Source: Helicobacteraceae bacterium
Lineage (GTDB): Bacteria > Campylobacterota > Campylobacteria > Campylobacterales > Sulfurimonadaceae
Assembly: GCA_013138865.1 (NCBI GenBank)
Contig: WTBY01000005.1
Location: 124,001-188,000 of the forward strand
Direction of reading: 5' to 3'
DNA: 64,000 bases
Shown here: piece after piece, positions 12,969-36,040 of the stretch
How the letters are laid out: every line of letters starts with the position of its first letter
How positions within the stretch are numbered: the stretch's first letter is position 1
Position numbers and translations under genes: made by a program
Notes under the pieces: model-generated
Databases searched by the model: none
What the model saw: the letters and a program-made list of their open reading frames with translations, nothing else
What the model was told of the DNA's origin: nothing

Positions 12969-13265
12969 ATGACAATGAAAGTTGGTATAAGAGATTTAGC
13001 GAGAAACTCTAATATACTTGATGGTTATGATTATGTAGATGTTGAAGATAAAAAAACACATGAGTATAAGGGCTTATTTATATCTCCTAAATATGCTGAA
13101 GAGTTTAAAACTTTTTTGGATGATAAAATATCTAAGAAGATGCAGGAAAAATGGGATAGAGTGGAACCATTTATAGGTTCTATGGAATGTGAAGATAGGT
13201 ATAAAGGTTTAGAAGGTAAAGAGCTAATGAAAGAACTTGCCAAGGCAAAATGTGAACTTAAATAA
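12969..13265 (+). CDS. Antitoxin of PIN-toxin module
   Basis: This is a 98-residue protein just upstream of a PIN-domain gene, overlapping it. The N-terminus VGIRDLARNSNILDGYDYVD and then VEDKKTHEYKGLFI resembles the orphan antitoxin at 7886 (REIVRNPSLLRIDA, then VEDKKAHKTLGVYL). The C-terminal half is helical and charged, as expected for toxin binding. Not a standard VapB by eye; the role is assigned from context. Confidence 0.7.
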   Translation: MTMKVGIRDLARNSNILDGYDYVDVEDKKTHEYKGLFISPKYAEEFKTFLDDKISKKMQEKWDRVEPFIGSMECEDRYKGLEGKELMKELAKAKCELK

Positions 13266-13668
13266 AATATATTTTGATACCAATATTGTATTAGATATTA
13301 TTGATTCTACTCGTATAAATCATAAAAGTGCAAATATATTATTGAAGTTTTGTATTTTTAATAATTATAAAATTATTATCAGTGAAGATATGTTAAGTAC
13401 AATTTTTTATATACAAAAAGATAAAAAACAAGTACTAGAGTTTTTGAAAGTGATTCAAAATGATTGGGATATTTCAACATTTGGAAAAGAAATTATTTCA
13501 AATGCTATTGAGTTGTCATTAAATAACACTTTAGACTTAGAAGATATTCTTCAATGCTTATGTGCAAAAGAAAATGGATGTAAAATATTAATAACGAATG
13601 ATAATAAATTTTATGATTGCGGTTTGTCTATATTTACAGCTGAAGAGTTTTTAAATGAAACCAGCTGA
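13252..13668 (+). CDS. PIN-domain ribonuclease toxin (VapC-like)
   Basis: The PIN signature is clear: IYFDTNIVLDIID at the N-terminus (first acidic residue), a central SEDMLSTIFYI, and a late acidic cluster LDLEDILQCLCAKENGCKIL followed by ITNDNKFY. VapC-like PIN proteins cut tRNA or rRNA with metal-bound acidic residues. The frame is open to TTG 13237, but GTG 13252 gives the usual short lead before the first strand. The gene overlaps the antitoxin by 14 bases and galE by 14 bases. Confidence 0.83.
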   Translation: MNLNKIYFDTNIVLDIIDSTRINHKSANILLKFCIFNNYKIIISEDMLSTIFYIQKDKKQVLEFLKVIQNDWDISTFGKEIISNAIELSLNNTLDLEDILQCLCAKENGCKILITNDNKFYDCGLSIFTAEEFLNETS

Positions 13669-14824: not shown

Positions 14825-15370
14825 ATGGGTGCTTTAAAAATAGAAGATGTTTCATACACTTATGATGATTATAAACTTTGGGAAGGTAACTGGGAGCTTA
14901 TAAATGGGATCGCTATTGCTATGAGTCCTGCTCCTATGCGTAAGCATCAAAGTTTAGCAAGTGGGATTATAGCTCAAATTTATGAACAGCTAAATGATTG
15001 TGAAATATGTGAAGTTTTAGGTGAAGTTGACTATAAAATAGATGACAATACCGTTTTAAGACCTGACATAGTTCTGACATGTAACGAACAAAATGATACT
15101 TATTTAACTAAAGCCCCTGAAATTATAGTAGAAATTTTAAGTAAATCTACAGCAAAAAGAGATGAACACTATAAGTTCAATATTTATGAAGCAGAAAAGG
15201 TAAAGTACTACATTATAGTAAATCCAGATGACCTTATAGCTAAAGTCTATAAACTAGACGTAAAAACATACGACAAGCAAGGTGACTTTAGCACAGAAAC
15301 TTATGACTTTAACGAGACTACATGTAAAGTAAGTATTGACTTTAAAAGAGTTTTTAAGAGGTTCCGGTAA
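14825..15370 (+). CDS. Uma2-family (DUF820) PD-(D/E)xK endonuclease
   Basis: This is a 181-residue protein with the Uma2 layout: YTYDDYKLWEGNWELINGI, then VLRPDIVL carrying the catalytic Asp, PEIIVEILSKSTAKRDEHYK with the E-x-K part, and KYYIIVNPDD. This fold is a restriction-like nuclease; the cellular role is not established. It has its own -10 box. A close relative lies at 28008, where it is embedded in the pgl operon. An inverted repeat (15379-15384 and 15390-15395) follows the stop and may be a weak terminator. Confidence 0.82.
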   Translation: MGALKIEDVSYTYDDYKLWEGNWELINGIAIAMSPAPMRKHQSLASGIIAQIYEQLNDCEICEVLGEVDYKIDDNTVLRPDIVLTCNEQNDTYLTKAPEIIVEILSKSTAKRDEHYKFNIYEAEKVKYYIIVNPDDLIAKVYKLDVKTYDKQGDFSTETYDFNETTCKVSIDFKRVFKRFR

Positions 15371-18752: not shown

Positions 18753-19694
18753 ATGAGTAAAAAAATAGCGGTTCTTATACCTTGCTATAATGAAGAGTTG
18801 ACCATAGCTAAAGTTATAAATGACTTTAAAAAAGAGTTACCAGAAGCAGACATATATGTTTATGATAACAACTCAAGTGATGATACATTCAAAATAGCTG
18901 AGCAAAATGGTGCAATAGTTAAAAAAGAGTACCGTCAAGGTAAAGGCAATGTAGTTCGCTCAATGTTTCGTGATATTGAAGCAGACATATATGTTATGAT
19001 CGATGGAGATGATACTTATCCAGCAGAGTTTGTTCATAGTCTAATGAAGCCTATTATAGATCAAGAAGCAGACATAGTTATAGGAGATCGCCATAGTAAT
19101 GGAACTTATAAAGATGAAAATAAACGACCTCTACATAACTTCGGAAATAACTTAGTTAAAGGACTTATAAACAACATATTCCATTCTGATCTAAAAGATA
19201 TTATGACAGGTTATAGAGTGTTCAACAAAAAATTTGTTAAAAATATGCCTGTAAACTCTAACGGCTTTGAAATAGAGACAGAGATGACACTACATACACT
19301 TGACAAAAAATTTCTCATTAAAGAGATACCTATAGAGTATAGAGACAGACCAGACGGTAGCTTCTCTAAACTTAACACTTATAGTGATGGTATGAGAGTC
19401 TTAAAAACTATTCTTTGGGTTTTTAAAGACTATAGACCATTAGCTTTTTTCACACTTTTTGCTTTTGGGTTTTTCATGCTAGCCTTGGTTGCAGGAATAC
19501 CCGTAATAGTTGAGTTTGTTAATACATCTTTAGTCTCAAAAATCCCATCAGCTATTTTAGCGGTTGGTCTTATGATCGTCTCAATGCTCTCACTTTTTAG
19601 TGGGTTTATTTTGGACACTATAGTAAAGCAACATAGAGAAGAGTATGAAATAAACTTAATAAGATGGTGTGAAAAAGAAAAGGATAATAAATAA
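18753..19694 (+). CDS. GtrB/DPM1-like GT2 with C-terminal membrane anchor
   Basis: This is a 313-residue protein. The catalytic domain has VLIPCYNEELTIAKVI, YDNNSSDDTF, MIDGDDTYPAE and DIMTGYRVFNKKFVKNMP. Two membrane segments follow (about residues 230-255 and 265-290). This is the polyprenyl-phosphate glycosyltransferase type that makes undecaprenyl-phosphate-sugar donors. With the adjacent GtrA and GT-C proteins it forms a plausible donor-flip-transfer set. AGGAG precedes the ATG. Confidence 0.82.
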   Translation: MSKKIAVLIPCYNEELTIAKVINDFKKELPEADIYVYDNNSSDDTFKIAEQNGAIVKKEYRQGKGNVVRSMFRDIEADIYVMIDGDDTYPAEFVHSLMKPIIDQEADIVIGDRHSNGTYKDENKRPLHNFGNNLVKGLINNIFHSDLKDIMTGYRVFNKKFVKNMPVNSNGFEIETEMTLHTLDKKFLIKEIPIEYRDRPDGSFSKLNTYSDGMRVLKTILWVFKDYRPLAFFTLFAFGFFMLALVAGIPVIVEFVNTSLVSKIPSAILAVGLMIVSMLSLFSGFILDTIVKQHREEYEINLIRWCEKEKDNK

Positions 19695-19695
19695 T

Positions 19696-21837
19696 ATGAA
19701 AGATATATTAACTTTAAAAGAGAATAGCGTTAGTTTAAAATACTTTATAGTGTTAATGTTTATAGCGTTTAGTTTTGCTGTAGCTGTAAGAATGATCTGG
19801 GTGGATCAGTTTAGCGCAGTTGATAGTTTCCGTTGGAATAACGAGATTATGATCAATACAAATGATGGCTACTACTACGCAGAAGGTGCAAGGGACATTA
19901 TAAATGGTACCCATCAAGAAAATGATCTCTCCCCCGTAACTTCTCCACTTTCAAAACTAACGGCTATGATCGCTTCTTTCTTGCCAATCTCTTTTGAAAC
20001 ACTGATCTTATATATGCCAACATTTTTTGGTTCACTTTTAGTAGTCCCGATTATGCTTATCGCACGTATAATAAAGTTAGACCAAGTTGGCTTTGTAGCA
20101 GCTCTTTTAGGTGGAATAGTTTGGAGTTATTACAACCGTACTATGACAGGGTACTATGATACCGATCTACTTGTTGTAGTTTTACCTACATTTTTTGTTT
20201 GGGGTGTACTTTTCTCACTCTCTCATGAAGATAGTGACTCTTTTTTAATAGCTCCTATTTTTGCTCTTATGGCTATGCATTGGCATGGGGGGATGACACA
20301 TATAGTTAATGGTGTATTTATATTAACTATTCTTTATACACTTATTTTTGAGCGTCGTAATTTATATTATTATAAATTTTTATCTGTTTTAGTGTTAGCA
20401 TTAACAACACTTCCTTTAGTAGTTAAAGCGTTACTTATGGTTGCTTTAGTGGCTTCATACCACCTCTTAAAAGCCAAACTGAGTGATAAAATAGTTATAG
20501 CTATTACTGCTCTCTCGGCTCTTATATATTTAATTTTTGGTGGAGCTGCATGGGTTGTAGAAATTTTAAATAGCTCTTACGTAACTCGTGCACTTCATGC
20601 AGAAGAGATGAACTTATCTCTTCACTACTTTGGAGTTGTAAATACTGTTCGTGAAGCAGGACATATACCTTTTGAAACGTTTGCTAATCGTATAAGTGGA
20701 CACACTATAACTTTTTGGCTAAGTGTGATCGGGTATGCTCTTTTAGTTTTTAGACATAAACTTTTCATTTTAACTCTACCTATGGTTATACTTGGCTTTT
20801 TTGCTCTTCAAGGTGGTCTTCGTTTTACAGTTTTTTCAGTTCCTTTTATGGCACTTGGTGTATCATTTTTAATATTTTTAGTAGCCAATTTTATTAAAAC
20901 TCTTTTTGCACAAAAAGTTCAAAACTACGCTAAATATACTTTTATAGTTTTATCTTCAATCGCTATACTATACCCGAATATTAAACATATAATAGCCTAT
21001 AAAGTTCCTGTTGTTTTTACTAAAGAAGAGGTAAAGGTATTAGATCAACTTAAAAAAATATCTTCACGCGAAGACTATGTTCTTTCATGGTGGGACTATG
21101 GTTACCCTATCCGTTACTATGCTGATGTTAAAACGTTAGTAGATGGTGCTAAACATAGTGGAAGCGTTAACTTTCCTGTTAGTTTTGCACTTATGAATAA
21201 CCAAGTAGCTGCAGCTAATATGGCTAGGCTTGATGTTGAATTTACAGAACTTAACTTTAAAAAACCTTGTGGACCCTCAGTTGAGTGCATGTTAAAGTAC
21301 TCAAAACTTAATAATCCAAATGAGTTAGTAAAAGCATTAAACTCAAAAAATTTACAACTTCCTCAAAAAACAAGAGATATTTTTGTATATTTACCAAATA
21401 AAATGTTAAATATTTTACCAACTATTGATCTGTTTTCTAACCTTGATCTTCTTAGCGGTAAAGCTAAAAAACGACCTCTATTTTTTAAGTCAACCTCTTT
21501 TAATGACAATGGTGTTTCTATTAACCTTGGAAATGGCATAGAGATACTAAAGCAAGGTGGTAAAATTAAAATAGGAAACCAAGAGACACAGATGAATAAG
21601 TTTGTAGTTACTGAGTATGATGCTAAAGGTGTATTACATAAAAATGTGCAAACCATCAACCCTAGCTCACCAGTATCTGTTATTTTTATGAAAAACTACA
21701 ACCAGTTTTTAGTTTTAGATAAACGTCTTTATAACTCACTGTATATTCAGCTTTTTGTTTTGGAAAACTATGATAAAGAGTTATTTGAACCAGTAATCAT
21801 GACTCCATTAGCTAAAGTGTATAAGTTAAAGAAGTGA
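19696..21837 (+). CDS. pglB: Oligosaccharyltransferase PglB (STT3 family)
   Basis: This is a roughly 713-residue membrane enzyme that moves a finished glycan from undecaprenyl diphosphate to asparagine in periplasmic proteins. The defining WWDYG is at residues 465-469, followed by YPIRYYADVKTLVDGAKHSG. About 13 membrane segments precede it. An acidic first loop (NTNDGYYYAEGARDI) provides metal ligands. The frame is open to GTG 19669, but ATG 19696 lies just after the previous stop and follows AGGA at 19681-19684. Length matches Campylobacter PglB. Its glycan is presumably built by the pgl genes downstream. Confidence 0.92.
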   Translation: MKDILTLKENSVSLKYFIVLMFIAFSFAVAVRMIWVDQFSAVDSFRWNNEIMINTNDGYYYAEGARDIINGTHQENDLSPVTSPLSKLTAMIASFLPISFETLILYMPTFFGSLLVVPIMLIARIIKLDQVGFVAALLGGIVWSYYNRTMTGYYDTDLLVVVLPTFFVWGVLFSLSHEDSDSFLIAPIFALMAMHWHGGMTHIVNGVFILTILYTLIFERRNLYYYKFLSVLVLALTTLPLVVKALLMVALVASYHLLKAKLSDKIVIAITALSALIYLIFGGAAWVVEILNSSYVTRALHAEEMNLSLHYFGVVNTVREAGHIPFETFANRISGHTITFWLSVIGYALLVFRHKLFILTLPMVILGFFALQGGLRFTVFSVPFMALGVSFLIFLVANFIKTLFAQKVQNYAKYTFIVLSSIAILYPNIKHIIAYKVPVVFTKEEVKVLDQLKKISSREDYVLSWWDYGYPIRYYADVKTLVDGAKHSGSVNFPVSFALMNNQVAAANMARLDVEFTELNFKKPCGPSVECMLKYSKLNNPNELVKALNSKNLQLPQKTRDIFVYLPNKMLNILPTIDLFSNLDLLSGKAKKRPLFFKSTSFNDNGVSINLGNGIEILKQGGKIKIGNQETQMNKFVVTEYDAKGVLHKNVQTINPSSPVSVIFMKNYNQFLVLDKRLYNSLYIQLFVLENYDKELFEPVIMTPLAKVYKLKK

Positions 21838-21851
21838 TAATTTTATTAGAG

Positions 21852-21857
21852 TATAAT
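21852..21857 (+). promoter_or_regulatory. -10 box of the Gsp-like run
   Basis: TATAAT lies 31 bases before the TTG at 21889, and GGAA (21880-21883) serves as ribosome site. It gives the Gsp-like genes a possible promoter separate from pglB. Confidence 0.45.
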
Positions 21858-21888
21858 GCAGATAATTTAAAAATATTATGGAATTGAC

Positions 21889-22638
21889 TTGGGTTTAAAA
21901 TATATAAATAGTGTTGGTGAAGTTTTTAACTTTGCTAATGTTAAAAACATCATTATACTCTCTCCCTCTTTCTACTGGTACGTAGAAAAAAGTGTGCAGA
22001 TAAAAAGCCTTCGTAAGGTGAAAAAACTTGCACCTTCTATTTTGGTCGGTCGAGCAGAGAGTATGAATGAGTTCTTTGTTATTGCTAATGGTGAGAATCA
22101 CTATAAATTTTATGCTTACTGTAAAGAGTGCGTAGAAAAAATTATAACTGAGAGTGAATTTGATGAGTGTGAGATCTATTTTGCTAATCAATTAAATTTT
22201 AGTGAAGATATAAAAATAACAGATGAGTACTCCATTAAAAATATTGATGGTGCAATGATCGAAATTGCTTCATCGCTAGAAGCTAAAAATTTAGAAGTTA
22301 TTGTAAATGAAAATGAATTTAATTCAAAACCATTTAAAATAAAGTCACTTAAGTCTCAAAATTCTGATCTATATTACAACACTCTTTTAGGGCTATTTGC
22401 TATTTTAGTTGTAAGTAGTTTAACATTAAGCTTTATGAAAGTGAGTGCGCTCTCCTCTAAAATAGATAGCATTAGTTATGGTGATCGTAACTCCTACTCT
22501 GCTGCTTCACTTATGAGAAAATATAAAAAATTAGAGTCAAAAAAAGAGAAAATAAAAAAAGATTTTTTAAAAATTACGAAAAGTAGCGGTGTCGTTAATG
22601 AGATTAGTTATGATGGAGTAAGTTTTGTCACTAAATAG
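21889..22638 (+). CDS. GspL/PilM-like inner membrane platform protein (tentative)
   Basis: This is a 249-residue protein. A cytoplasmic part of about 160 residues is followed by one membrane segment (about 165-186, LLGLFAILVVSSLTLSFMKV) and a short charged coiled periplasmic tail. That is the layout of GspL, though shorter than usual. Just upstream of the TTG the frame reads GIDLG, as in actin-like folds, so the true start may be a rare codon slightly upstream. Assigned mainly because GspM-, GspN- and GspC-like genes follow. It overlaps the next gene by 14 bases. Confidence 0.5.
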   Translation: MGLKYINSVGEVFNFANVKNIIILSPSFYWYVEKSVQIKSLRKVKKLAPSILVGRAESMNEFFVIANGENHYKFYAYCKECVEKIITESEFDECEIYFANQLNFSEDIKITDEYSIKNIDGAMIEIASSLEAKNLEVIVNENEFNSKPFKIKSLKSQNSDLYYNTLLGLFAILVVSSLTLSFMKVSALSSKIDSISYGDRNSYSAASLMRKYKKLESKKEKIKKDFLKITKSSGVVNEISYDGVSFVTK

Positions 22639-23041
22639 TATACTAAGCGATAAATTTTTTAAACTATACCTATTTATAGCGCTATTAGCTATTTGGATCA
22701 TATTTACTGCTTTTAACTCATCAAAATTAGCCTCTTTACATACCGAGCTAAACACTAAGAGCGAAAAAGTTAGTGAATTTAAAAAATTAGAAGTTAGCTG
22801 GAGTAAGAAGTTTCGTAAAGAAGAGTTGCTTAGAGTTGAAAAAATGTTAAGTGTTCAAGGGGTTACTTTTGAAAAGAAGAAGAGAAAGAAAAAAATAACT
22901 TACACTATGAAACTAAATGAATCTCAAATAGATACTATAGTTGGCTATCTATTGAATAGAAATATAGAAATAAAAAAGTTTTCTATAAAAAAGAGTGGCT
23001 CTTATGATGCAGAATTTAAATTTGAAGTGAATGGTGTATAG
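22625..23041 (+). CDS. GspM-like protein (tentative)
   Basis: This is a 138-residue protein with a short cytoplasmic N-terminus, one membrane segment (about 12-32), a heptad-like coiled stretch, and a C-terminal domain of about 60 residues (ITYTMKLNESQIDTIVGYLL, ending FKFEVNGV). The layout matches GspM, which partners GspL through a ferredoxin-like periplasmic domain. Sequence similarity is weak by eye; order and topology carry the call. Confidence 0.55.
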   Translation: MSLNSILSDKFFKLYLFIALLAIWIIFTAFNSSKLASLHTELNTKSEKVSEFKKLEVSWSKKFRKEELLRVEKMLSVQGVTFEKKKRKKKITYTMKLNESQIDTIVGYLLNRNIEIKKFSIKKSGSYDAEFKFEVNGV

Positions 23042-23548
23042 ATGGAAATTTTAAAAAAAGCTCTCTACTCATTGTCACTTCTTTTAACAGTAGTGGTTGT
23101 AACTTTTTTATTTCTACCAAAAGATCAGCTCTTTTTTCTGGCACAAGAAGAGGCATTAAAACATAAAGTAACTCTAAAATACCAAAATCTTGAAGAGACA
23201 CTTTTCTCTTTAGATGTAAAAAATTTAGAGATCTATTATGTTGGTAGTGAAATTGTACGTGCAAAGAGTCTAAATGTTGGTTTTGGTGGTGTTGTATTGG
23301 AAAATATATCTTTTAAAGGGATAGTTAAAAAAGCTATTGGCGATAGTGCAGATAGAGTAGCACTAACACCTACACCAACATTTTTAAAGGCAACTGGTAG
23401 TTTTGGAAGTGCTGAAGGAAATTTTGAGATTAAGAAGAGAAGTATATCTCTTCAGTTAACTCCTAGTGCTAAGCTACTGAAAAATAAAAATATGCTTAGT
23501 GGTATGAAAAAAGAGGGGAATAAGTATGTATTTAATTACAAAATATAG
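23042..23548 (+). CDS. GspN-like membrane-anchored periplasmic protein (tentative)
   Basis: This is a 168-residue protein with one N-terminal membrane segment (about 8-25) and a beta-rich periplasmic domain (LDVKNLEIYYVGSEIVRAKS, then LNVGFGGVVLENISFKG). The pattern of repeated strands after a signal anchor resembles GspN of type II secretion systems. It starts one base after the GspM-like stop and overlaps the GspC-like gene by 23 bases. Confidence 0.5.
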   Translation: MEILKKALYSLSLLLTVVVVTFLFLPKDQLFFLAQEEALKHKVTLKYQNLEETLFSLDVKNLEIYYVGSEIVRAKSLNVGFGGVVLENISFKGIVKKAIGDSADRVALTPTPTFLKATGSFGSAEGNFEIKKRSISLQLTPSAKLLKNKNMLSGMKKEGNKYVFNYKI

Positions 23549-24401
23549 TAACATAACTCCGAAAGTTTTTTCATTTTTAGTAGCTGTTTTGGTCGCGTTA
23601 ATTATAGATGTTACAATAGGCTTCTTTCTACCTAAAAGTCCACCTGTTATAGAAATAGAAACAGAAAAAAAAGCAAATATATCTTTTAATGTTATAACTA
23701 AGTTAGGAATAATTTCTAAAGAAGTTGTAGTAACGAAACAGAGTATTGAACTTTCTGATAATAATTTGATCTTAACAGCTTTTAAAATGAGCGCTTTTTA
23801 TATTAAAGGCAAGCGCAAGTTTATAATGATTAAAGATGGTGCTAAGTCAAAACTAATTGATCTAGATGAAGTTTACAAAGGCTATAAGTTAGTTGATGTT
23901 TTTCCTTACCGTGCTAAATTTTTAAAAGCAAATGTTACATACTGGCTCTATATGAATAGTGATGAAGCTAAAGGTCATATAGAAAAAGAGGCAGCTCAAA
24001 AAAGTGAAAATATAAAAAAACAGATGGTTGCAGATATAAAACGTCAAAATGTAATGTTTGAAAAAATTAAGTTTAAAGATGGAACTTACTTCATACCTCA
24101 AACTATTATGAGTGAATTTAATGACTTGAGTAAAATATTTAGAGACATCTCCTTACAGTCTATACGTAATACAAAGGGCAATAGAAAATTAAAGTATAAA
24201 ATTAGAAGATTACGAGCAGGAAGTGTATTCTCAAAATTAGGTCTTAGAAAAGGTGACTTCATTACTCAAATAGATGGAAAAATACTTGGTGGTGATGCTG
24301 ATGCTTTTAAACTATTTAATAACATGTCATCTTTAGAGCATATAAGCATAACAGTAAAAAGAGGTGCAAAAGAGCAAGAGTTAAAATATGAAATATTTTA
24401 A
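23526..24401 (+). CDS. GspC-like protein with C-terminal PDZ domain
   Basis: This is a 291-residue protein. It has a membrane anchor at about residues 14-34 and a periplasmic domain with GspC homology-region character (LGIISKEVVVTKQSIELSDN onward). The C-terminal PDZ domain contains AGSVFSKLGLRKGDFITQID followed by GKIL. GspC links the inner membrane platform to the GspD secretin. The PDZ motif is the strongest evidence that this four-gene run is a type II secretion subcomplex. No secretin, ATPase or pseudopilin gene lies in the window. Confidence 0.62.
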   Translation: MYLITKYSNITPKVFSFLVAVLVALIIDVTIGFFLPKSPPVIEIETEKKANISFNVITKLGIISKEVVVTKQSIELSDNNLILTAFKMSAFYIKGKRKFIMIKDGAKSKLIDLDEVYKGYKLVDVFPYRAKFLKANVTYWLYMNSDEAKGHIEKEAAQKSENIKKQMVADIKRQNVMFEKIKFKDGTYFIPQTIMSEFNDLSKIFRDISLQSIRNTKGNRKLKYKIRRLRAGSVFSKLGLRKGDFITQIDGKILGGDADAFKLFNNMSSLEHISITVKRGAKEQELKYEIF

Positions 24402-24419
24402 GATCTATTAAGTCTATAA

Positions 24420-26219
24420 ATGTGTGGAATAGCAGGTGCGATCAACTACTCTAAGTACAACTTAGAAGCGATTAAAACTTCTCTTTACCATAGAGGTCCA
24501 GATGAGCAAGAGATCTACATAAAAGATGAACTTGCACTTATTCATACACGTCTGGCTATTCAAGATATAGCTGATGGTCATCAACCTTTTCACTATCAAA
24601 ATTATTCGATCGTATTTAATGGAGAAATTTATAACCATTTAGAATTGCGAAGTCAACTAGAAGAGTTCTCATTTAAAACAACTTCAGATACTGAAACACT
24701 TCTCTATTTATACATAAAATTTAAAGAAAAATGTTTTGAAATGTGTGATGGTATGTTCGCTTTTTCAATTATAAACTATGAAACAAATCAACTAATACTA
24801 GCTCGTGATCGTGCAGGTAAAAAACCACTCTATTTTTATAAAGATAGTGACTCGCTACTTTTTGCAAGTGAACTTAATGCGATCAAAGCTGGAGTAAGTA
24901 AGTTAGATATAGATGAAGAGGCTATTAGCTCTTACTTACGAGCAGGCTTCTTTTATAGTAAGTATACTCCTTTCAAAGATGTAGAAGAAGTTGATGCAGG
25001 TAGCTTTTACGAAATAGATATAAACTCTTTAGAGCTTACAAAGCATAAATTTTTTGATATAGAAGAGTTCTATAACAGACCAAGCAGTATGAATTTTGAA
25101 GAGTCACTAAAAAGTGTAGATGATGCTCTTAGAAAAAGTGTTAAAGATAGGTTAACTAGTTCAGACTTAGAAGTTGGTGCCTTTTTAAGTGGAGGAATTG
25201 ACAGCTCTTTAATAGTTGCGATCGCTTCAGAGTATAAAGATAATTTAAAAACATTTACCGTTAAGTTTGATGGAGCTTATGATGAGTCATATCTAGCTTC
25301 TTTAACGGCTAAAAAATATAATACTCAGCACCATACTATAGATATAAGTATGAACGTTAAAGATGATTTGGAAAAGATACTTTTTAACTATGGTATGCCT
25401 TTTATGGACAGCTCCGCAATCCCTAGCTACTATGTTTCACAAGAAGCAAAAAAACATGTAAGTGTGATCTTAAATGGTGATGGTGCTGACGAGATCTTTG
25501 GTGGTTATAGACGTTATGTTCCGATCGCTAATAACATAATAGGTTTAGCTTCAAAGTTCTCTTTTTTACTTAATATTATGCCGATCGCAAATAACAAAAA
25601 AAGTTTATACTCTCATATTTACAGACTCTTAAGTATGTCAAATAAAAAAGGTTTAGACTTTTACCTATCTGCTACTAGTGATCTCTTTGAAGATAGTTAT
25701 AAATTTAAGAGTAACCATATTTTAGATGAGATGGATACATTTATAAATAGTTGTAGACTTAAAGGTCTCTCAAAACAGTTATATTTAGACTTTAAAATGT
25801 TACTACTCTCAGACTTATTAGTAAAAATGGACATAGCAACTATGGCTCACTCACTTGAAGGGCGTTCGCCATTTTTGAGTAAATATATGTTAGAGTTAGC
25901 ACCAACACTACAAGACTCATTTAAAATAAAAGGTAAGAGTACCAAGTATATTTTAAGAGAACTATCTAAAAAATATCTACCTAAAGAACTTATAACTCAA
26001 CCTAAACGTGGTTTTGAAATACCACTTAAAAGATGGGTTGAAAATGATCTAAGTTCTAATATAAATGATGTACTTAGCTCTAATTCATACTCATCAACAT
26101 TTATAGAGAATGATTTTATACAAAAGTTACTAAATAAAAGAATTGTAGTCTCAGATGAAAAACGAGCTAAAATGCTTTGGGATATGTACTGTTTAGAGGT
26201 ATGGAAGAAAAACTTATAA
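24420..26219 (+). CDS. asnB: Asparagine synthase (glutamine-hydrolysing)
   Basis: This is a 599-residue protein. Cys2 (MCGIAGAINYS) is the glutaminase nucleophile, RGPDEQ and FNGEIYNH complete the class II amidotransferase domain, and SGGIDSSL (about 257-264) is the ATP pyrophosphatase loop. It makes asparagine or amidates a related substrate. Copies within glycan clusters sometimes amidate sugar acids; that is possible here but unproven. No good Shine-Dalgarno is seen before the ATG. Confidence 0.85.
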   Translation: MCGIAGAINYSKYNLEAIKTSLYHRGPDEQEIYIKDELALIHTRLAIQDIADGHQPFHYQNYSIVFNGEIYNHLELRSQLEEFSFKTTSDTETLLYLYIKFKEKCFEMCDGMFAFSIINYETNQLILARDRAGKKPLYFYKDSDSLLFASELNAIKAGVSKLDIDEEAISSYLRAGFFYSKYTPFKDVEEVDAGSFYEIDINSLELTKHKFFDIEEFYNRPSSMNFEESLKSVDDALRKSVKDRLTSSDLEVGAFLSGGIDSSLIVAIASEYKDNLKTFTVKFDGAYDESYLASLTAKKYNTQHHTIDISMNVKDDLEKILFNYGMPFMDSSAIPSYYVSQEAKKHVSVILNGDGADEIFGGYRRYVPIANNIIGLASKFSFLLNIMPIANNKKSLYSHIYRLLSMSNKKGLDFYLSATSDLFEDSYKFKSNHILDEMDTFINSCRLKGLSKQLYLDFKMLLLSDLLVKMDIATMAHSLEGRSPFLSKYMLELAPTLQDSFKIKGKSTKYILRELSKKYLPKELITQPKRGFEIPLKRWVENDLSSNINDVLSSNSYSSTFIENDFIQKLLNKRIVVSDEKRAKMLWDMYCLEVWKKNL

Positions 26220-26260: not shown

Positions 26261-26494
26261 ATGACAGTTAGAAAGAACTTTTTATTTGATGACGAAATAG
26301 CAGAACAACTAGTAGAGATATCAGAAATTAAACATATAACACAAACTCAAGTTGTAAAAGAGTTAATTATTAAAGAGTATGATGAAGTCACAAAAGAAGA
26401 GAAGCTTGAAGCAGTTAAAAATTTCATAGGCTCAGGCACAGGGTTGTTTGGTGATATGACAATACAATCAATAAAAGCCAATAGAGATGTATAA
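26261..26494 (+). CDS. Ribbon-helix-helix-like antitoxin of VapBC module
   Basis: This is a 77-residue protein with an N-terminus like ribbon-helix-helix regulators (VRKNFLFDDEIAEQLVEISE, then HITQTQVVKELI). It lies before a PIN toxin and overlaps it by 8 bases. The C-terminal tail would wrap the toxin. It should repress its own promoter through the inverted repeat upstream. Confidence 0.75.
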   Translation: MTVRKNFLFDDEIAEQLVEISEIKHITQTQVVKELIIKEYDEVTKEEKLEAVKNFIGSGTGLFGDMTIQSIKANRDV

Positions 26495-26915
26495 AAAAGT
26501 TTTTTTAGATGCTAATATTTTTATAGATGCAAATGATTCATCTCGCTTATGCTTTAAAGATAGCTCAAAAATATTAACACATTTAGCTAATAAAGAGGCA
26601 AAACTTTTCACAAGTTGCGATCTTATAACTACCATCTATTACATTCTTTCAAAAAACTCAAAAGATAGTGCACTAAGTGCTATAGAAAATATAAATAAAT
26701 TTTGTAACATTATAGACTTTTCAAATAAAGAGGTTAAAAAGAGTTGTGCACTTATGAGAAAAAATAACAAGTATAGTGACTTAGAAGATACATTACAATA
26801 TATCTTAGCCAAAAAAGAGAACTGTGATCTAATTGTCTCAAATGACAAAAACTTCTATAGCGAGACTATTGAGCTGCTAAGTTCACAAGAATTTTGCAAG
26901 AAACATAGTTTATGA
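26487..26915 (+). CDS. PIN-domain toxin (VapC-like)
   Basis: This is a 142-residue PIN protein: KVFLDANIFIDANDSSRL at the start, YSDLEDTLQYILAKKENCDL and IVSNDKNFY near the end. It is related in layout to the toxin at 13252 (LEDxLQ, then xxENCxLxxxNDxxFY). It overlaps the antitoxin by 8 bases and pglA by 4 bases (ATGA), so the glycosyltransferase is probably translated from the same message. Confidence 0.83.
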   Translation: MYKKVFLDANIFIDANDSSRLCFKDSSKILTHLANKEAKLFTSCDLITTIYYILSKNSKDSALSAIENINKFCNIIDFSNKEVKKSCALMRKNNKYSDLEDTLQYILAKKENCDLIVSNDKNFYSETIELLSSQEFCKKHSL

Positions 26916-28021
26916 AAATAGCTTTCCTCTCTCACTTAGATCTTAACCTCTACCTTTTTCGCTTACCGATCATGGAGGCACTTGTTAAACAGGGACATGA
27001 AGTTTTTGCTATATGTCCACGTGGTGACAAGTTTGAGGAGTTTGAGAAGTATAGTGTACAAGCAATAGAGTATAAAATTCAGCGTCAAAGTCTTAACCCG
27101 TTTAAAGAGTTGAAAACTATTAGAAATATTTTCAAAGTGATAAAGCCACTTCAACTAGATATATTGCAAAACTTTACAGCAAAACCAAATATATATGGCT
27201 CTATTGCAGGACACCTAGCGAAAGTTCCTATGATCGTAAATGCAGTAACAGGTTTAGGAAGCTTTTATATAAGTGAAACAAAAAAAGCTAAAGCTATAAA
27301 AATAGTTATGGAAAAATTATATAAAGAAGCTAACAAGAGAGTGAATTTTGTGATCTTTCAAAATAGTGATGATATGAGTTATTTTATAGAGAAAAAATTA
27401 GTAACTAAAGAGAAAGCTGTGCTTATTAAAAGTTCTGGAATTGATACTAAAAAATTCATAGCTACACCAACTGAAAAAAATGAAAAAGTAGTTGTACTTA
27501 TGGTCGCACGTGCTATATGGCACAAGGGTATAAAAGAGTATTATAGAGCTGCTGAAATTTTAAAAGAGAAGAGTATTGAGTTTATTTTAATTGGTGATAC
27601 AGATGAAGGTAACCACAGTTGTGCACCAAAAGAGTTTTTACAGAGTGGTTATGTTAAGTGGTTAGGTCATAGAGATGATATTAAAGAGCAAGTTAATAAG
27701 TGCGATATATTTGTACTTCCAAGTTACCGTGAAGGAGTTCCAAGAACTCTTCTTGAAGCAACTTCTATGTCAAAGCCGATCGTAACAACAGATACAGTTG
27801 GATGCCGTGAAGTTGTTGATGATGGAGTCAATGGTTTTTTAGTGCCACTATATGACTCAAAACTTTTAGCAATTAGAGTTTTAGAGTTAGCTAATGATGA
27901 GGCGTTACGTCGCACTATGGGTCGAAAAGGAAGAGCTAAAGCTGTTAATGAGTTTGATGTTGGTATAGTTGTAAATAAATATTTAGAAGTTTATAAAAGG
28001 AGCATAGATGGGAGCAGCTAG
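26912..28021 (+). CDS. pglA: PglA-like GT4 N-acetylgalactosaminyltransferase
   Basis: This is a 369-residue GT-B enzyme. IAFLSHLDLNLYLFRLPIME at the start and VTGLGSFYISE match Campylobacter PglA, which adds the first GalNAc to diacetylbacillosamine on undecaprenyl diphosphate. The C-terminal domain has VARAIWHKGI and the E-x7-E motif in REGVPRTLLEATSMSKPIV. It overlaps the PIN toxin at its 5' end and a Uma2 gene by 14 bases at its 3' end. Sugar specificity is inferred. Confidence 0.78.
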   Translation: MKIAFLSHLDLNLYLFRLPIMEALVKQGHEVFAICPRGDKFEEFEKYSVQAIEYKIQRQSLNPFKELKTIRNIFKVIKPLQLDILQNFTAKPNIYGSIAGHLAKVPMIVNAVTGLGSFYISETKKAKAIKIVMEKLYKEANKRVNFVIFQNSDDMSYFIEKKLVTKEKAVLIKSSGIDTKKFIATPTEKNEKVVVLMVARAIWHKGIKEYYRAAEILKEKSIEFILIGDTDEGNHSCAPKEFLQSGYVKWLGHRDDIKEQVNKCDIFVLPSYREGVPRTLLEATSMSKPIVTTDTVGCREVVDDGVNGFLVPLYDSKLLAIRVLELANDEALRRTMGRKGRAKAVNEFDVGIVVNKYLEVYKRSIDGSS

Positions 28022-28550
28022 GTTAGAGAACTTACCTCATTATACTTATGAAGAGTATGAAAATTGGGAAGGTAGATGGGAACTTATAGATGGAATACCA
28101 TACGCAATGAGTCCATCACCTGTGTATGCACATCAAGATATTAGTGCAAATATATCTTATGAGTTAAAAAGCAGACTTAAAAACTGTAAGTTTTGTAAAG
28201 CTGTGTTAGCAGTTGATTGGATTATATCGAACGACACTGTAGTCTGTCCTGATAATATGGTAAGTTGTACCAAAGGGATCAAGACAAAATTCATAGAAAA
28301 AACACCAGAAGTTATTTTTGAGATCCTCTCACCATCTACTAAGAAAAAAGATCGCACAACTAAGTACAACTTGTTTCAAGAAAAAGGTGTAAAGTATTAT
28401 ATTTTAGTCGATCCTAAAGGTAGTTTTGCAGAACTATACATTTTAAAAGATGGTTACTATAAGTTAGAAGCAGAGTTTAGCAATGAGACTTTTAACTTTG
28501 AGTTAGACGAGTGTAGTTTTAAGTTTAACTTTGGAAATATTTTTGACTAA
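28008..28550 (+). CDS. Uma2-family endonuclease embedded in pgl operon
   Basis: This is a 180-residue protein related to the one at 14825: both begin MGA and share [19 protein letters not shown]-type sequence. VVCPDNMV and [16 protein letters not shown] with [10 protein letters not shown] complete the PD-(D/E)xK core. AAAAGGAG inside the end of pglA is a strong ribosome site. It overlaps pglA by 14 and pglC by 20 bases. A nuclease-like gene this tightly built into a glycosylation operon is unexpected. Confidence 0.82.
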
Positions 28551-29551: not shown

Positions 29552-30991
29552 ATGACCTACGATTACCTCAAAAATTTAAAAAAGCAGAACCAGACTCTTA
29601 AGCTTTTAAATAGTGATAATTTTGCTATGATGGGTTCATTTTTTTACTTTGTTTTTATAGAAAATAGACATTTAACTATAACGCACTCTGCAATTTTAAA
29701 CTATTTAGATGATTTCTTGTATGATATTAATAAAACGTATGTTGATGCTTATCCAAAACTAGCTAAAGATTATTTAGATGACTTTGTAAACGATAAAAAT
29801 GGGTATTTAAAAAAGTACCATGGTAGTGATGATGAAGCTATCTATGAACTTACTCCATACACTCAAAAAGTTTTTGAAATTTTGGACTCTTTGGAAAAAA
29901 AAGAGTTTGTTGGAAGTCGCACAAAGTTTAATATCATTTTTGAGCTTTTAGAAGAGTTGGACTATGAGACAAACTTAAGTGATGATGAACGTATAAGTTT
30001 GCTTGAGGATCAAAAGGCTAATATTGATAAAAAAATAGAGGATATAAAAAGTAAAAAAGATCTGCGTTTTGATAACAGCAGAATAAAAGAGCACTTTATG
30101 CTTATAGAAGAGCAGAGTCGAAAACTACAATATGATTTCTCACAAATTGAGTACAACTTTAGAGACTTAAACCAAAAAGCGATGCAACATATTACAACTT
30201 CTTACGATACAAAGGAGAGTGTTTTGGACTCAATTTTTGACATTGAAGAGAGTATAAGGCAGAGTGATCAAGGAAAAAGTTTCTTTGCTTTTTGGCAACT
30301 CTTAACTGACGCTACAAAAAATGAGAAGTTAACTAAAATGTTAGATAAACTCTATACTCTTGAGGTTGTAAAAAAGTTAGATAGTGACGAAAGGCTTAAA
30401 ACTCTAAAATATGATCTACTTGTAAATGCTGAAAAAATTAGTAAAATTTCTTCAAAATTAATAGATCAACTACGAAGATTTTTAGATGATCGAGTCTGGA
30501 TAGAAAATAGAAAAATCTTAGAGCTTTGTAACAATATAGAAAAAAATGCAATTATGTTAAAACAAAATCCACCATCTACAAAAGGTTTTTTGCACTTAGC
30601 TGATAGCAAAGTTAATGTAGATACTGTTTTCGAGAAGTCTATTTATAGTGTTAAAAATAACAAAGAGTTTAAAGCTGAGATCATAGAAGAGATATATGAG
30701 GTAAATTTAGATACTTTTTATGATATGTTTTTTGTTGATGAAGATAGTTTAAAAAAAAATATAAACTACTTCTTACAACTACAATCACAGTGTAGCTTAA
30801 ATGAAATTATTGAGAAATTTCCTATTAAAAAAGGGTTGAGTGAGTTAGTTTCATATCTCTCAATTGCAAAAAAATCTGATCATTCCATAGTATTAGATGA
30901 TAAGCAAAAACTTTTTATAACGGATGATGATGGAAAAGAAAAAGTGGTTGTCGTACCCAAAATAATATTTACAAAAGGAGAAGCACAATGA
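29552..30991 (+). CDS. jetA: Wadjet JetA (DUF3375, MukF-like kleisin)
   Basis: This is a 479-residue protein with the DUF3375 start (LLNSDNFAMMGSFFYFVFIE), YELTPYTQKVFEILDSLEKK and FVGSRTKFNIIFELLEEL. Coiled helical regions follow, as in the kleisin subunit that bridges the SMC heads. In Wadjet it forms the loop-extruding complex that recognises small circular DNA. It starts 15 bases after the acetyltransferase stop, without a clear promoter, and overlaps jetB by 4 bases. Confidence 0.85.
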   Translation: MTYDYLKNLKKQNQTLKLLNSDNFAMMGSFFYFVFIENRHLTITHSAILNYLDDFLYDINKTYVDAYPKLAKDYLDDFVNDKNGYLKKYHGSDDEAIYELTPYTQKVFEILDSLEKKEFVGSRTKFNIIFELLEELDYETNLSDDERISLLEDQKANIDKKIEDIKSKKDLRFDNSRIKEHFMLIEEQSRKLQYDFSQIEYNFRDLNQKAMQHITTSYDTKESVLDSIFDIEESIRQSDQGKSFFAFWQLLTDATKNEKLTKMLDKLYTLEVVKKLDSDERLKTLKYDLLVNAEKISKISSKLIDQLRRFLDDRVWIENRKILELCNNIEKNAIMLKQNPPSTKGFLHLADSKVNVDTVFEKSIYSVKNNKEFKAEIIEEIYEVNLDTFYDMFFVDEDSLKKNINYFLQLQSQCSLNEIIEKFPIKKGLSELVSYLSIAKKSDHSIVLDDKQKLFITDDDGKEKVVVVPKIIFTKGEAQ

Positions 30992-31560
30992 ACCAAGATG
31001 CAAGAATAGCAATAGTATTGCTACTAAAAGGATTGTTCTATAAGAGCGATAATGAAAAAGCATTTTTTGAGCTGATCAATAACAGTTATGGCGCTATTTC
31101 TGAGTATTTTACTATTATTGGTTTAGATGTTTTAATTGATGAGAATGATGGTTATGCTTATCTTAAAAATAGTATAATCGAAGATGAAAAAGAGTCCCTT
31201 CCTAAGCTAATTCAAAGCAGAGAATTAAGCTATAAAGTTTCACTACTATGTCTGCTATTAAGAAAAAAAATAGCTGACTTCGACATGCAAAATGAGAATG
31301 AAAGAGCAATAGTTACTAAAGAAGATATAAGCTCGTTAATTTTACTTTTTTTAGATATAAAATTTAACGAAGTTAAGATAACTAAAGAGATCGATGTTAC
31401 AATAAAAAAAGTTCAAGAGTTAGGTTTTTTAAAAAAACTAAAAATATCTGATGATGCTTATGAGATTAAAAGCTCTATAAAGGCTTTTATAGATGCTTCA
31501 TGGCTAGATGAGTTTGATACAAAACTAAGTGATTATAAAAAGGCTGAACTATGGACTTAA
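30988..31560 (+). CDS. jetB: Wadjet JetB (DUF4194, MukE-like)
   Basis: This is a 190-residue mostly helical protein with winged-helix features, between JetA and JetC in the standard order. The start (DARIAIVLLLKGLFYKSDNE) and YLKNSI, then SRELSYKVSLLCLLLRKKIA, fit DUF4194. It overlaps jetA by 4 and jetC by 10 bases. AAAGGAG at 30977-30983 is its ribosome site. Size is normal for type I. Confidence 0.8.
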   Translation: MNQDARIAIVLLLKGLFYKSDNEKAFFELINNSYGAISEYFTIIGLDVLIDENDGYAYLKNSIIEDEKESLPKLIQSRELSYKVSLLCLLLRKKIADFDMQNENERAIVTKEDISSLILLFLDIKFNEVKITKEIDVTIKKVQELGFLKKLKISDDAYEIKSSIKAFIDASWLDEFDTKLSDYKKAELWT

Positions 31561-34500
31561 GGTTTGACTTCACAAGTGACGATCGCAGTGCTGGTTTTCG
31601 TTTAGAGCATTTTGAACTTTATAACTGGGGAACATATAACAAAAAAATAGTAACTTTAGAGCTAAATAAATACAACGCACTTTTAACTGGTGACATAGGT
31701 AGTGGAAAGTCAACGGTTGTTGATGCACTTACAACTCTTTTAGTTCCGCACAATAAGATAACATTCAATAAAGCAGCAGGTGCAGAGTCTAAAGAGAGAT
31801 CGCTCTACTCTTATGTAGTAGGTGAGTATAAAGCAACCCAAGATGAGAACTTTGGACACTCAAAAGCGATCTCACTTCGTGATGAGAGTAGTTTTAGTGT
31901 AATTTTGGGTAGGTTTGAAAATATTGGTTACGATGAATCTATTACTCTTGCACAATTTTTTTATATTACTCAAAAGCAGGTTCATAAATTTTTTGTAGTC
32001 TCAAAATCTATACTTAGTATTAAAAAAGACTTTTTTAAATTTGAGGATATTCGGGGATTAAAAAAGAGTTTAAGAAATACAAATCATACAGAAGTTTTTG
32101 AAACATTTAAAGAGTATTCAAAATTATTTAGACGAGAGATGGGTATTAAAAATGAACAAGCATTAAACCTTTTTTACCAAACAGTTTCACTTAAATCTAT
32201 AGGTAATTTAACAGAGTTTATAAGAACACACATGTTAGAAGACAGTAAAATAGATGAGAAAATAGATGAGCTCTGTTTAAACTTTGCAGAGCTAAACAAT
32301 GCACATGACTTAGTGTTAAAAGCAAAAAGACAGATAGAGCTTCTAAGCCCAATTGACAAAGAGTTTGTAAAGTATAAAAATACTCTATCATCTCAAAATA
32401 TATCTATTGATATGAGAGAGTCACTTAAGTGCTACTTTGCATTTTTTGAGCGAGAGCTTTTAGAAGCTCATTTAAGTGAACTTAATATTGAGCTAAGTAA
32501 AAACCAATCAAATAGTGCATTAATTGATAATAAAGCAGAAAAGCTAAATAATGATGTGATGAACATTAAACTTGAACTTCAAAAAAATGGAGCAGATAGA
32601 ATAAATAAAATAGAAGATGAAATTAAATATATAAGTAGCACTCTGATGAGTACAAAAAGTGAGAACGAGACATATAATAACTTAGTAAAAAGTTTAGGCT
32701 ACAACTCTGTTTCAAATGAGCATAGATTTTTATCACTGCTAGAAGATTTTAAAGAAAAATTTATAAATATTGAAGATGATAAAGATAAATATCAAAACCA
32801 GATCACAAGAGATACTCTAAGCTTTGAGAAATATGATAAGGAACTCTTAATACTAAACCAAGAGATCCACTACCTTAAGAATAATCGATCAAATATTCCA
32901 CAACATATCTCAAAAATCAGAGATGAAATGTCAAAAGCACTTAATATAAATAGTGACGAGTTACCATTTCTAGGCGAACTGATTGAAGTAAGTGACAAAA
33001 ATTGGAATGGTGCAATAGAGCGAATACTACATAGTAGTGCTATATCTTTATTGGTTGAGGCTGACCTATATGAGAGAGTGAGTGAGTATGTTGATCAAAC
33101 AAACTTAAAAGGCAAGCTTGTATATTTAAGAGTTGACACTTCAAGTAAAACTAATGAGTATAAACAGAGTGTACCAAACTCAATTTTAAGTAAGGTTGAT
33201 GTTAAAGTTGATAGTCCATACTTTAATGTTGTTGAGACTATTTTGTACGATCGCTTTAACATCTCATGTGTAGATAATTTAGTTGACTTTAGAAGGTTTA
33301 AAAAAGCGTTAAGTATAAAAGGGCAGTTTAAAACGAACCTAACAAGGCATGAAAAAGATGATCGTTTTAACATTGATGATAAATCAAGATGGGTTTTAGG
33401 TTGGAATAACTTACTAAAATTAGAGGAATTTGAGCAGAACTTTATAACTATAAAAGAGAAGAAAGAGTTTGTATCTAACAACTTAGTGCAGGTAAAAATA
33501 AAAGCACAAGAGTTACAACATAAACGAGATCTTTTAAGAGATGTTATTAAATATGATAATTTTGAAAAAATAGACTGGTATAGGTACTCTAAAGAGATAG
33601 AGATCTTAAAAGATGAGCAACAAAAGTTAGAAAAAAGTAGTGATATTATTAAAACTTTAAAAGAACAACTTTTTGAAGTTGAACTCTCTTTGAAAGAGCA
33701 AAAGTATGCTTCTATAACTATTTTTAAGAAACTAGGAGAGATTGAAGAGAAAATTAGAAGTGGAGAACTTGAAAAAGATAGCGTTACGATCGTGTTGGAA
33801 ACTGAGGTAGTTAAAGAGTCGATCGTAGATCACTTAGAGCTACTAAGAGATCAACTGATAAGTAGTAAATTGAATTTAAATACCATCAGATCAACACAAG
33901 TTAAATATAGAGAGCATATTCAAAAAGAGATAGAAAGTAAACGGAAAGTATTAGTTAAATCAACAGAGTTAATACTTAAATTACAAGGTGACTTTATAGT
34001 TGAGTTTCCTGTACTATCTAAAGAGTTATATGCTAGTGTTGAGTGTTGTGATGAGTTCAATAAAAAGCTATACGAGCTTAAAAAAGATAACTTACCAAAA
34101 TGGCAGAAAAAGTTTAAGACACTATTTAAAGAGAAAACTATTCAAAATATTGTTATGTTGCAAAGCAATTTAGAGTTCTTAGCATCTGAAATAAAAGCAA
34201 AAATCAGCACCATAAATAAGTCACTTACAGATATAGAGTATAGCGATGGAACTTTTATAGAGCTTATTACTACACCCTCGAATATAGCAGAGATTAAAGA
34301 GTTTAAACAAGAGTTAAAAGAGCTAACATCTGGTGTGATTGATGAAGATAATATTTATGATGAGTCAAAGTTTTTAAAAATAAAAGAGCTTATAGAACGT
34401 TTTAACACTCGTGAGGGTTATAGCGATGTAGACAAAAAGTGGCGTAAGGTTGTAACAGATGTTAGAAAATGGTTTGACTTTAGTGCTAATGAAAAGTATA

Positions 34501-34880
34501 TGAGTGATGGCAGTATAAAAGAACACTATGCCCATAGTGGTGGTAAGTCAGGTGGGCAAAAAGAGAAACTTGCTTACACTGTTTTGGCTTCATCATTAGC
34601 GTATCAATTTGGCTTGGAGCATGACAGAGTTCAAAGTAAGTCATTTCGATTTGTTATGATTGATGAGGCATTTGGAAGAGGTAGTGACGAGAGTACAAAA
34701 TATGCACTAAGTCTGTTTGAAAAACTTAAGTTGCAACTTCTTGTAATTACACCTAAACAAAAAATAAATGTTATAGAGCCATTTGTAAATAGTGTTCATT
34801 TTGTACATAATAGAGATGGAATGGACTCAACTCTTATAAGTATGAAAATTCAAGAGTATATTAAAAATAAGAAAAAATAG
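31551..34880 (+). CDS. jetC: Wadjet JetC (SMC-like ATPase)
   Basis: This is an 1109-residue protein. The N-terminal ATPase half has FELYNWGTYNKKI and Walker A GDIGSGKST (residues 47-55). Long coiled coils surround a hinge-like region near the middle (about 470-640). The C-terminal half carries the signature HSGGKSGGQKEKLAYTVLAS and Walker B FRFVMIDEAFGRGSDES. This is the motor that extrudes DNA loops. All ATPase motifs are intact. It overlaps jetB by 10 bases. Confidence 0.92.
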   Translation: MDLRFDFTSDDRSAGFRLEHFELYNWGTYNKKIVTLELNKYNALLTGDIGSGKSTVVDALTTLLVPHNKITFNKAAGAESKERSLYSYVVGEYKATQDENFGHSKAISLRDESSFSVILGRFENIGYDESITLAQFFYITQKQVHKFFVVSKSILSIKKDFFKFEDIRGLKKSLRNTNHTEVFETFKEYSKLFRREMGIKNEQALNLFYQTVSLKSIGNLTEFIRTHMLEDSKIDEKIDELCLNFAELNNAHDLVLKAKRQIELLSPIDKEFVKYKNTLSSQNISIDMRESLKCYFAFFERELLEAHLSELNIELSKNQSNSALIDNKAEKLNNDVMNIKLELQKNGADRINKIEDEIKYISSTLMSTKSENETYNNLVKSLGYNSVSNEHRFLSLLEDFKEKFINIEDDKDKYQNQITRDTLSFEKYDKELLILNQEIHYLKNNRSNIPQHISKIRDEMSKALNINSDELPFLGELIEVSDKNWNGAIERILHSSAISLLVEADLYERVSEYVDQTNLKGKLVYLRVDTSSKTNEYKQSVPNSILSKVDVKVDSPYFNVVETILYDRFNISCVDNLVDFRRFKKALSIKGQFKTNLTRHEKDDRFNIDDKSRWVLGWNNLLKLEEFEQNFITIKEKKEFVSNNLVQVKIKAQELQHKRDLLRDVIKYDNFEKIDWYRYSKEIEILKDEQQKLEKSSDIIKTLKEQLFEVELSLKEQKYASITIFKKLGEIEEKIRSGELEKDSVTIVLETEVVKESIVDHLELLRDQLISSKLNLNTIRSTQVKYREHIQKEIESKRKVLVKSTELILKLQGDFIVEFPVLSKELYASVECCDEFNKKLYELKKDNLPKWQKKFKTLFKEKTIQNIVMLQSNLEFLASEIKAKISTINKSLTDIEYSDGTFIELITTPSNIAEIKEFKQELKELTSGVIDEDNIYDESKFLKIKELIERFNTREGYSDVDKKWRKVVTDVRKWFDFSANEKYMSDGSIKEHYAHSGGKSGGQKEKLAYTVLASSLAYQFGLEHDRVQSKSFRFVMIDEAFGRGSDESTKYALSLFEKLKLQLLVITPKQKINVIEPFVNSVHFVHNRDGMDSTLISMKIQEYIKNKKK

Positions 34881-34882
34881 AT

Positions 34883-36040
34883 ATGAATTTTTTTGAGTTA
34901 GATGAGGTGTATAAAAAGCTTAATAGACATTATGATAGTGGTGCTATTTTTAAAAATCATATAGAAAATAGTACAATTTTTCCACTCACAATAAACTTCA
35001 AAAAGGTTAAACAAAAAGATATACAAAGCAGTTACTCACAACTTTTAAGAGATCTTCAACATGCAAAAAACTCTTCGTTTACTCTAATTTATAAGCAACA
35101 TAATTACAAATCACTAGGAGTACAAAACTTACCTATTGCAGTTTACATAGAGTCACTAGAAGAGTTCTTAAAAATTATTATCAAGAAAGATGAATATATT
35201 TTATTTGTAGAGTTGTACATAAGAACAACTAAACTCTACCCAACATTGAAACAATTTTTTATAAATAGGCCTATGGTGATTTTAGAGTATAAGTATGAGT
35301 GGGAAAATTTCTACAAAATAGTAGATTTTTTTTTAAGGAATAGTTCTGCAAATATTTATATAAGAGAGATAAGTTTAGAGAGTGTTGATACAAAATATAT
35401 TCAAAAATATAAAAAGATTATTGATATACTTATATCAACCATAACACAAAATGAGTCTCTGAAGTCACTTAGTGATTTTAGTTTTGAAAAGAAGTATAAT
35501 CTTAAATACCCACTTGCTCAAATAAGTTTTAGAGTACTTGATAAGAAGTTGAAAATAGCAAATTTGACTCATTTGAGCATTCCTATTAATGAGTTTGACT
35601 CTTTAAACATTGAGTGTAAAAAGGTTTTTATAGTTGAGAATAAGATTACATTTTTATCTTTTTTTGATGTAGAAAACAGTATTGTTCTCTTTGGTAGTGG
35701 TTATGGTATAAGTGTGTTAAAAAATGTAAAATGGCTTCAAAGAAAAGAGATATACTATTGGGGTGATATTGACCTAGATGGTTTTGCAATTCTTTCACAA
35801 GCTAGAGGTTATTTTGCTAATATAAGATCAATTTTTATGGATGAAAAGACGATAGACATGTTTAAAAATTCAGCTACTTCCTACAAAGGTTCAAAAGAGG
35901 TAGTTCTAACAAATTTAAGTGAAGATGAGCAGTTGATCTATACGCGTCTACAGAATGAATTCTATGGAATAAATTTTAGGTTAGAACAAGAAAAATTACC
36001 ATTTAATTATATAAAAAGTGAGATTTTAAACTATGAATAA
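34883..36040 (+). CDS. jetD: Wadjet JetD (DUF3322/DUF2220 Toprim nuclease)
   Basis: This is a 385-residue protein. The N-terminal DUF3322-like part is followed by a Toprim-type domain with the Glu strand VFIVENKITFLSF, and YYWGDIDLDGFAILSQARGY with the metal-binding DxD (about residue 295). JetD cuts the plasmid once the JetABC motor stalls on a small circle. It starts two bases after jetC and overlaps pglE by 8 bases. The four-gene order and intact motifs indicate a complete type I-like Wadjet. Confidence 0.9.
   Translation: MNFFELDEVYKKLNRHYDSGAIFKNHIENSTIFPLTINFKKVKQKDIQSSYSQLLRDLQHAKNSSFTLIYKQHNYKSLGVQNLPIAVYIESLEEFLKIIIKKDEYILFVELYIRTTKLYPTLKQFFINRPMVILEYKYEWENFYKIVDFFLRNSSANIYIREISLESVDTKYIQKYKKIIDILISTITQNESLKSLSDFSFEKKYNLKYPLAQISFRVLDKKLKIANLTHLSIPINEFDSLNIECKKVFIVENKITFLSFFDVENSIVLFGSGYGISVLKNVKWLQRKEIYYWGDIDLDGFAILSQARGYFANIRSIFMDEKTIDMFKNSATSYKGSKEVVLTNLSEDEQLIYTRLQNEFYGINFRLEQEKLPFNYIKSEILNYE

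Follow-up and report, generated by a model that had tools for sequence, protein, structure and literature searches.

A gspL-M-N-C gene set beside pglB as the probable inner-membrane platform of a second, split type II secretion system in a Helicobacteraceae bacterium

The stretch of DNA analysed here (the window, 64,000 nucleotides) corresponds to nucleotides 124001-188000 of contig C16, part of a draft genome of 3.03 Mb in 82 contigs from a Helicobacteraceae bacterium. Four intact and co-directional open reading frames of 249, 138, 168 and 291 aa are located at 21889-24401 of the window and represent gspL-M-N-C of a type II secretion system (T2SS), named system 2 in the following. The gspL gene (21889..22638, + strand) begins with TTG, in agreement with the start in its Hydrogenimonas homologues, and encodes a short cytoplasmic GspL domain, one transmembrane (TM) helix and a coiled coil. 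It overlaps gspM (22625..23041, +) by 14 bp, whose product has an N-terminal TM or long helix followed by a ferredoxin-like domain. The gspN gene (23042..23548, +), identified by TIGR04411 and by a profile-profile match, follows at a spacing of 0 bp and overlaps gspC (23526..24401, +) by 23 bp; GspC contains a TM segment, a match to the HR region and a C-terminal PDZ domain (24201..24395, +; residues about 226-290). Directly upstream lies pglB (19669-21837, STT3/PglB domains in Pfam), and the next gene downstream is a co-directional asnB-like gene (24420-26219). The pglB/gspL junction of 51 bp (21838..21888, +) and the gspC/asnB junction of 18 bp (24402..24419, +) form the left and right edges of an apparent insertion. 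Homologous L, M, N and C genes can be observed in the same order at about 40 other loci, and the arrangement is therefore not due to chance.

Other features of the window were also recorded. A complete Wadjet type I defence system, with JetA, JetB, JetC (1201 bits) and JetD in order, is located inside the glycan cluster at 29552-36040. One gene for a PIN-domain protein and one for a Uma2-family nuclease are found on each side of the pglB/gspLMNC segment, at 13237-13668 and 14825-15370 on one side and at 26487-26915 and 28008-28550 on the other, in what appears to be a repeated pairing. At 9888-11428, an HTH gene (recognized by eye) is followed by a HipA-family kinase gene with HipA domains, forming a HipBA-like toxin-antitoxin pair.

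The preliminary description recognized in the four proteins the topologies of GspL, GspM, GspN and GspC and placed a PDZ domain in the last; profile, profile-profile and structure comparisons agree with these identities. Three NCBIfam GspC models match GspC over residues ~96-290 (3e-13, 3e-12 and 2e-9, all under the curated cut-offs), and 9 of 9 members of its subfamily match such models. The match begins at about residue 96 and spans the stretch in which a putative HR domain would lie. In Pfam, the C-terminal part matches PDZ_2 (1.6e-5) and PDZ_6 (2e-4), both slightly under the gathering cut-off, and a PDB search with the GspC profile recovers the PDZ domains of OutC, EpsC/GspC and PulC (6e-10 to 2e-8); the expected PDZ domain is present in this protein. 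Some GspC variants carry a coiled coil in place of the PDZ domain.

Further comparisons were made profile against profile, with the window-type subfamilies as queries and the same-position proteins of intact T2SS operons as targets. The E values were 1e-44 for GspC, 4e-32 across 166 columns for GspN and 5e-15 for GspM. GspN also matches TIGR04411 (1.7e-4, under the curated cut-off), as do 4 of 9 members of its subfamily. No Pfam family exceeds its cut-off for the four window proteins or the L alignments, so the profile-profile and structure comparisons were used; searching PDB sequences with the profiles of L and M returned chance matches only. In the AF2 model of GspM (mean pLDDT 77), a long helix is followed by the order alpha-beta-beta-alpha-beta-beta (H61-77 E E H E E), the order of the EpsM/PilO ferredoxin-like domain, and the TM helix, coiled coil and ferredoxin-like fold expected of a GspM are present. 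Foldseek matches to EpsM (1uv7, 0.035) and PilO (2rjz, 0.089) are weak and stand amid unrelated ferredoxin folds, so this evidence is supportive rather than conclusive.

The GspL-like protein was said to be shortened and easily missed in routine annotation; both points are confirmed, and no Pfam family reaches its cut-off for this protein. Its profile matches GspL of intact T2SS operons at E 7e-22, in an alignment that ends before the last ~57 columns. The AF2 model (mean pLDDT 75) has four PDB matches below 1e-3, all of them cytoplasmic domains of GspL (1yf5, 4pht in two chains, and 5tkw), with E values of 7e-5 to 1e-3 and TM-scores of only about 0.34-0.41, in a block where pLDDT is mostly 80-93. 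A helix at residues 159-194 forms the TM segment and is followed by a coiled coil and a short hairpin at the end. Both the model and the profile alignment indicate that the periplasmic ferredoxin-like domain (FLD) is missing. Aligned Hydrogenimonas homologues are equally short (about 243-263 aa) and likewise have no FLD, which indicates a lineage trait rather than the truncation of a single gene. In model systems, this domain of GspL forms homodimers as well as heterodimers with GspM (PMC3815138). This unusual, FLD-less GspL, found across Hydrogenimonas, provides a natural experiment on whether pairing of the L and M ferredoxin domains is needed.

The preliminary description noted that no secretin, ATPase or pseudopilin is near the four genes. 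This holds locally and fails for the genome as a whole, in which secretins, ATPases and pseudopilin genes occur elsewhere. Targeted searches found three secretins, three PilB/GspE-type ATPases, T2SSF proteins and a prepilin peptidase; gspD, gspE and gspF, whose absence from the genome had been named as evidence against the platform, are all present. The 7,728 bp contig C55 consists of an intact gspD-E-F-G-H-I-J-K and no other genes, and contains no L, M, N or C. Its GspD matches best to TIGR02517 (3.6e-94; 316 bits, not reaching the curated cut-off of 351), GspE to TIGR02533 (5.5e-162) and GspF to TIGR02120 (4e-75), the last two also below their curated cut-offs, and GspG is above its cut-off (1.6e-38). 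The prepilin N-terminal motif is present in H, I and J, and GspK was assigned only through orthology to the K of Hydrogenimonas. A single prepilin peptidase gene (GspO/PilD; PF06750 at 1e-35, and PF01478) is located on contig C65.

A second set of genes, system 1, is distributed between contig C5 (D-E-I-J and, about 15 kb away, H-F) and contig C12 (K-L-M-N-C), and has its own L-M-N-C in the latter. No system-1 GspG was found in the stretches of C5 and C12 that were read (L019, L020, L025, L169, L170). In relatives, gspG adjoins gspH-F. The third secretin, on contig C76, belongs to a cluster which, judged by its gene make-up, seems to resemble the cts/MSHA-type competence cluster of Campylobacter. 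The other two secretins belong to the two T2SS gene sets of the genome.

The platform genes found in the window (L, M, N, C) are precisely the ones missing from C55. The two halves are found joined in Hydrogenimonas (genus g21, family f4), in a single operon L-M-N-C-D-E-F-G-H-I-J-K, in which L, M, N and C most resemble those of the window and D to K those of C55. The Hydrogenimonas proteins score 108-136 bits against system 2 and 54-71 bits against system 1 for GspC, and 435-455 and 292-340 bits, respectively, for GspD. Concatenated trees of L+M+N+C and of D+E+F both place system 2 as sister to one metagenome-assembled locus (L124) plus 12 Hydrogenimonas loci, with SH-aLRT support of 99 and 100; the branches are long, yet the two separate gene sets agree. 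System 1 groups with the genome's own family in both trees. A tree of gspC only is consistent, with weaker support (88/78). Among 397 genomes sampled from across the phylum, GspD of the C55 type (1e-112 or better) was found in the source genome and Hydrogenimonas only. A reading of the platform as cryptic or orphan is not supported, as a matching gspD-K set lies on C55.

Two loci outside Hydrogenimonas were noted beside these. In L124, from a MAG labelled only 'Campylobacterota bacterium', the system-2 genes form two adjacent, divergently oriented blocks, K-J-I-H-G and L-(M)-N-C-D-E-F, a further arrangement of these modules. In L125, a T2SS platform and a secretin of Campylobacterota-like type are found on a contig binned as Thermococcus, for which a binning error in that MAG is the most likely cause.

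In 40 of 40 other loci holding both genes, gspC and gspD are spaced by -101 to +13 bp; in the source genome, this junction is broken in both T2SS. Near-identical copies of the two ends of C55 (1-127 and about 7600-7728) are present at many other contig ends, including that of C16 itself, and D-K is therefore flanked by copies of a multicopy element. This repeat begins about 3 bp past the gspK stop codon, lies at, or close to, contig ends in about a dozen cases (C16, C27, C38, C39, C40, C43, C49, C57, C63, C69, C75) and has diverged copies inside C63 and C6. Its right part opens a reading frame (MQLSFFDHAMKYQGG...), which presumably resembles IS5-type transposases; this frame was not identified by Pfam or among plasmids, and a transposase was not found. 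No trace of the repeat was detected at the pglB/gspL or gspC/asnB junctions. A match to TTGACT-17-TATAAT occurs upstream of gspD on C55 and is only suggestive, as such matches on this contig are no commoner than in shuffled sequence.

In the usual T2SS, GspE, anchored at the cytoplasmic face by GspL and GspF, drives assembly of the GspG-K pseudopilus, and GspC connects the platform with the secretin channel formed by GspD, through which folded periplasmic proteins exit. The L-M-N-C genes of the window are very probably the inner-membrane platform of a complete T2SS, system 2, whose D-K genes are on C55, an ancestral operon having been split and its platform displaced. The ancestral form was most likely a single operon L-M-N-C-D-E-F-G-H-I-J-K, as in Hydrogenimonas. 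Breakage between gspC and gspD would have left L-M-N-C in a surface-glycan operon between pglB and asnB and D-K between copies of the IS-like repeat, an element that may itself have caused the split. The products of both loci would meet in the membrane, and homology to model T2SS suggests that the two halves still cooperate in the usual manner. As GspL is without its periplasmic ferredoxin-like domain, docking of L and M would take place via the membrane and the coiled coil.

The position beside pglB had been taken to suggest glycosylation-coupled export, with a dedicated glyco-secretion module whose platform exports pilin-like or secreted proteins once PglB has glycosylated them, so that neighbourhood reflects function. 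The three units are co-directional and tightly spaced, which makes co-transcription of pglB, gspL-M-N-C and asnB plausible, and PglB is generally known to work in the periplasm, where T2SS substrates fold. In two genomes of the same order (G347 and G392), however, asnB starts a few bases past pglB with nothing between them, and L-M-N-C thus appears to be inserted between the two genes. Moreover, a distance of about 190 to 460 kb separates pglB from gspC in 14 complete genomes, and those system-2 loci of Hydrogenimonas that were inspected gave no pglB match. The Campylobacter-type sequon D/E-X-N-X-S/T is absent from 12 of 12 system-2 proteins and occurs once each in PglB and in three system-1 proteins. 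With the linkage absent from the 14 complete genomes, pglB adjoining asnB directly in two relatives and no sequon in the system-2 proteins, the coupling is not upheld; only position ties the platform to the neighbouring pglB, and a dedicated module of this kind is very unlikely. A relaxed sequon, or glycosylation of the secreted substrates, is possible. That the insertion was kept as a tie of platform production to N-glycosylation, with system 2 and its FLD-less GspL exporting PglB-glycosylated proteins, is equally improbable.

The four genes may also be seen as a decaying remnant, in which the platform fell out of use after the break and secretion is left to system 1. The operon is indeed split, a second system exists, and the proteins have diverged from their nearest relatives: GspC of the window is about 31% identical to that of Hydrogenimonas and sits on a long branch. 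Yet the two GspC types agree in about 50 invariant columns despite this divergence, the four reading frames are intact with near-seamless overlaps, the eight genes on C55 are also intact, and the short GspL, being common to intact Hydrogenimonas operons, is not a product of decay. Inactivity is therefore considered unlikely, though less so than the glycosylation-based readings. That the four genes belong, by virtue of PilN/PilO-like folds, to a different machine, such as a type IV pilus or an accessory scaffold of the flagellum, is scarcely credible. The GspL and GspM folds are common to PilM/N/O, and the GspM model matches PilO as well; however, genuine GspC and GspN lie alongside, the best solved matches of the GspL model are GspL, and the Hydrogenimonas orthologues share one operon with gspD-K. 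Operon and tree evidence led to rejection of the orphan-platform, pilus and flagellar-scaffold readings. As a caution for other loci, function may be misread from a neighbourhood that was created by an insertion.

A survey reported T2SS to be absent from 98 epsilonproteobacterial genomes (PMC4793230), a later genome paper noted a T2SS with several subunits missing (PMC4674564), and T2SS genes have been mentioned in Sulfurovum and in vent symbionts (PMC10045233, PMC7580541). No description of a Hydrogenimonas T2SS was found in the literature search. In the present work, 89 of the 151 genomes from the family of the source genome yielded GspC homologues, and divergent L, M, N and C genes were found at about 40 loci. 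Standard profiles miss L and M, a possible explanation of the reported gaps. The T2SS itself is a known machine; this subfamily is little described, and the FLD-less GspL and the split are its variant features.

Compared with known systems, the window platform with C55 is closest to the Hydrogenimonas operon (L102-L109, L116-L123), with which it shares orthologous L-M-N-C and D-K, the gene order within each half, the FLD-less GspL and a node in the trees, whereas the Hydrogenimonas operon is contiguous, unsplit and has no pglB match nearby, and identity is about 31% in GspC and 23-28% in GspL. The family-type T2SS (L055-L074), represented here by system 1, contains the same components, including the order K-L-M-N-C, with gspC next to gspD in relatives; it differs in overall order (for example G-H-F-K-L-M-N-C-D-E-I-J), in its separate clade and in a GspL of about 306-324 aa with an extra C-terminal part that the 249 aa protein of the window does not have. 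The Vibrio Eps, Klebsiella Pul and Dickeya Out systems share the PDZ domain of GspC, the fold of the GspL cytoplasmic domain and the ferredoxin-like fold of GspM, but in their GspL the cytoplasmic domain is longer and a periplasmic ferredoxin-like domain follows (PMC3815138), the latter missing from the protein described here. In Legionella pneumophila, T2SS genes are likewise scattered over distant loci, five in that species (PMC4793230); that lineage is unrelated, however, and in the present genome the break isolates the L-M-N-C platform, while a repeat element bounds the other half.
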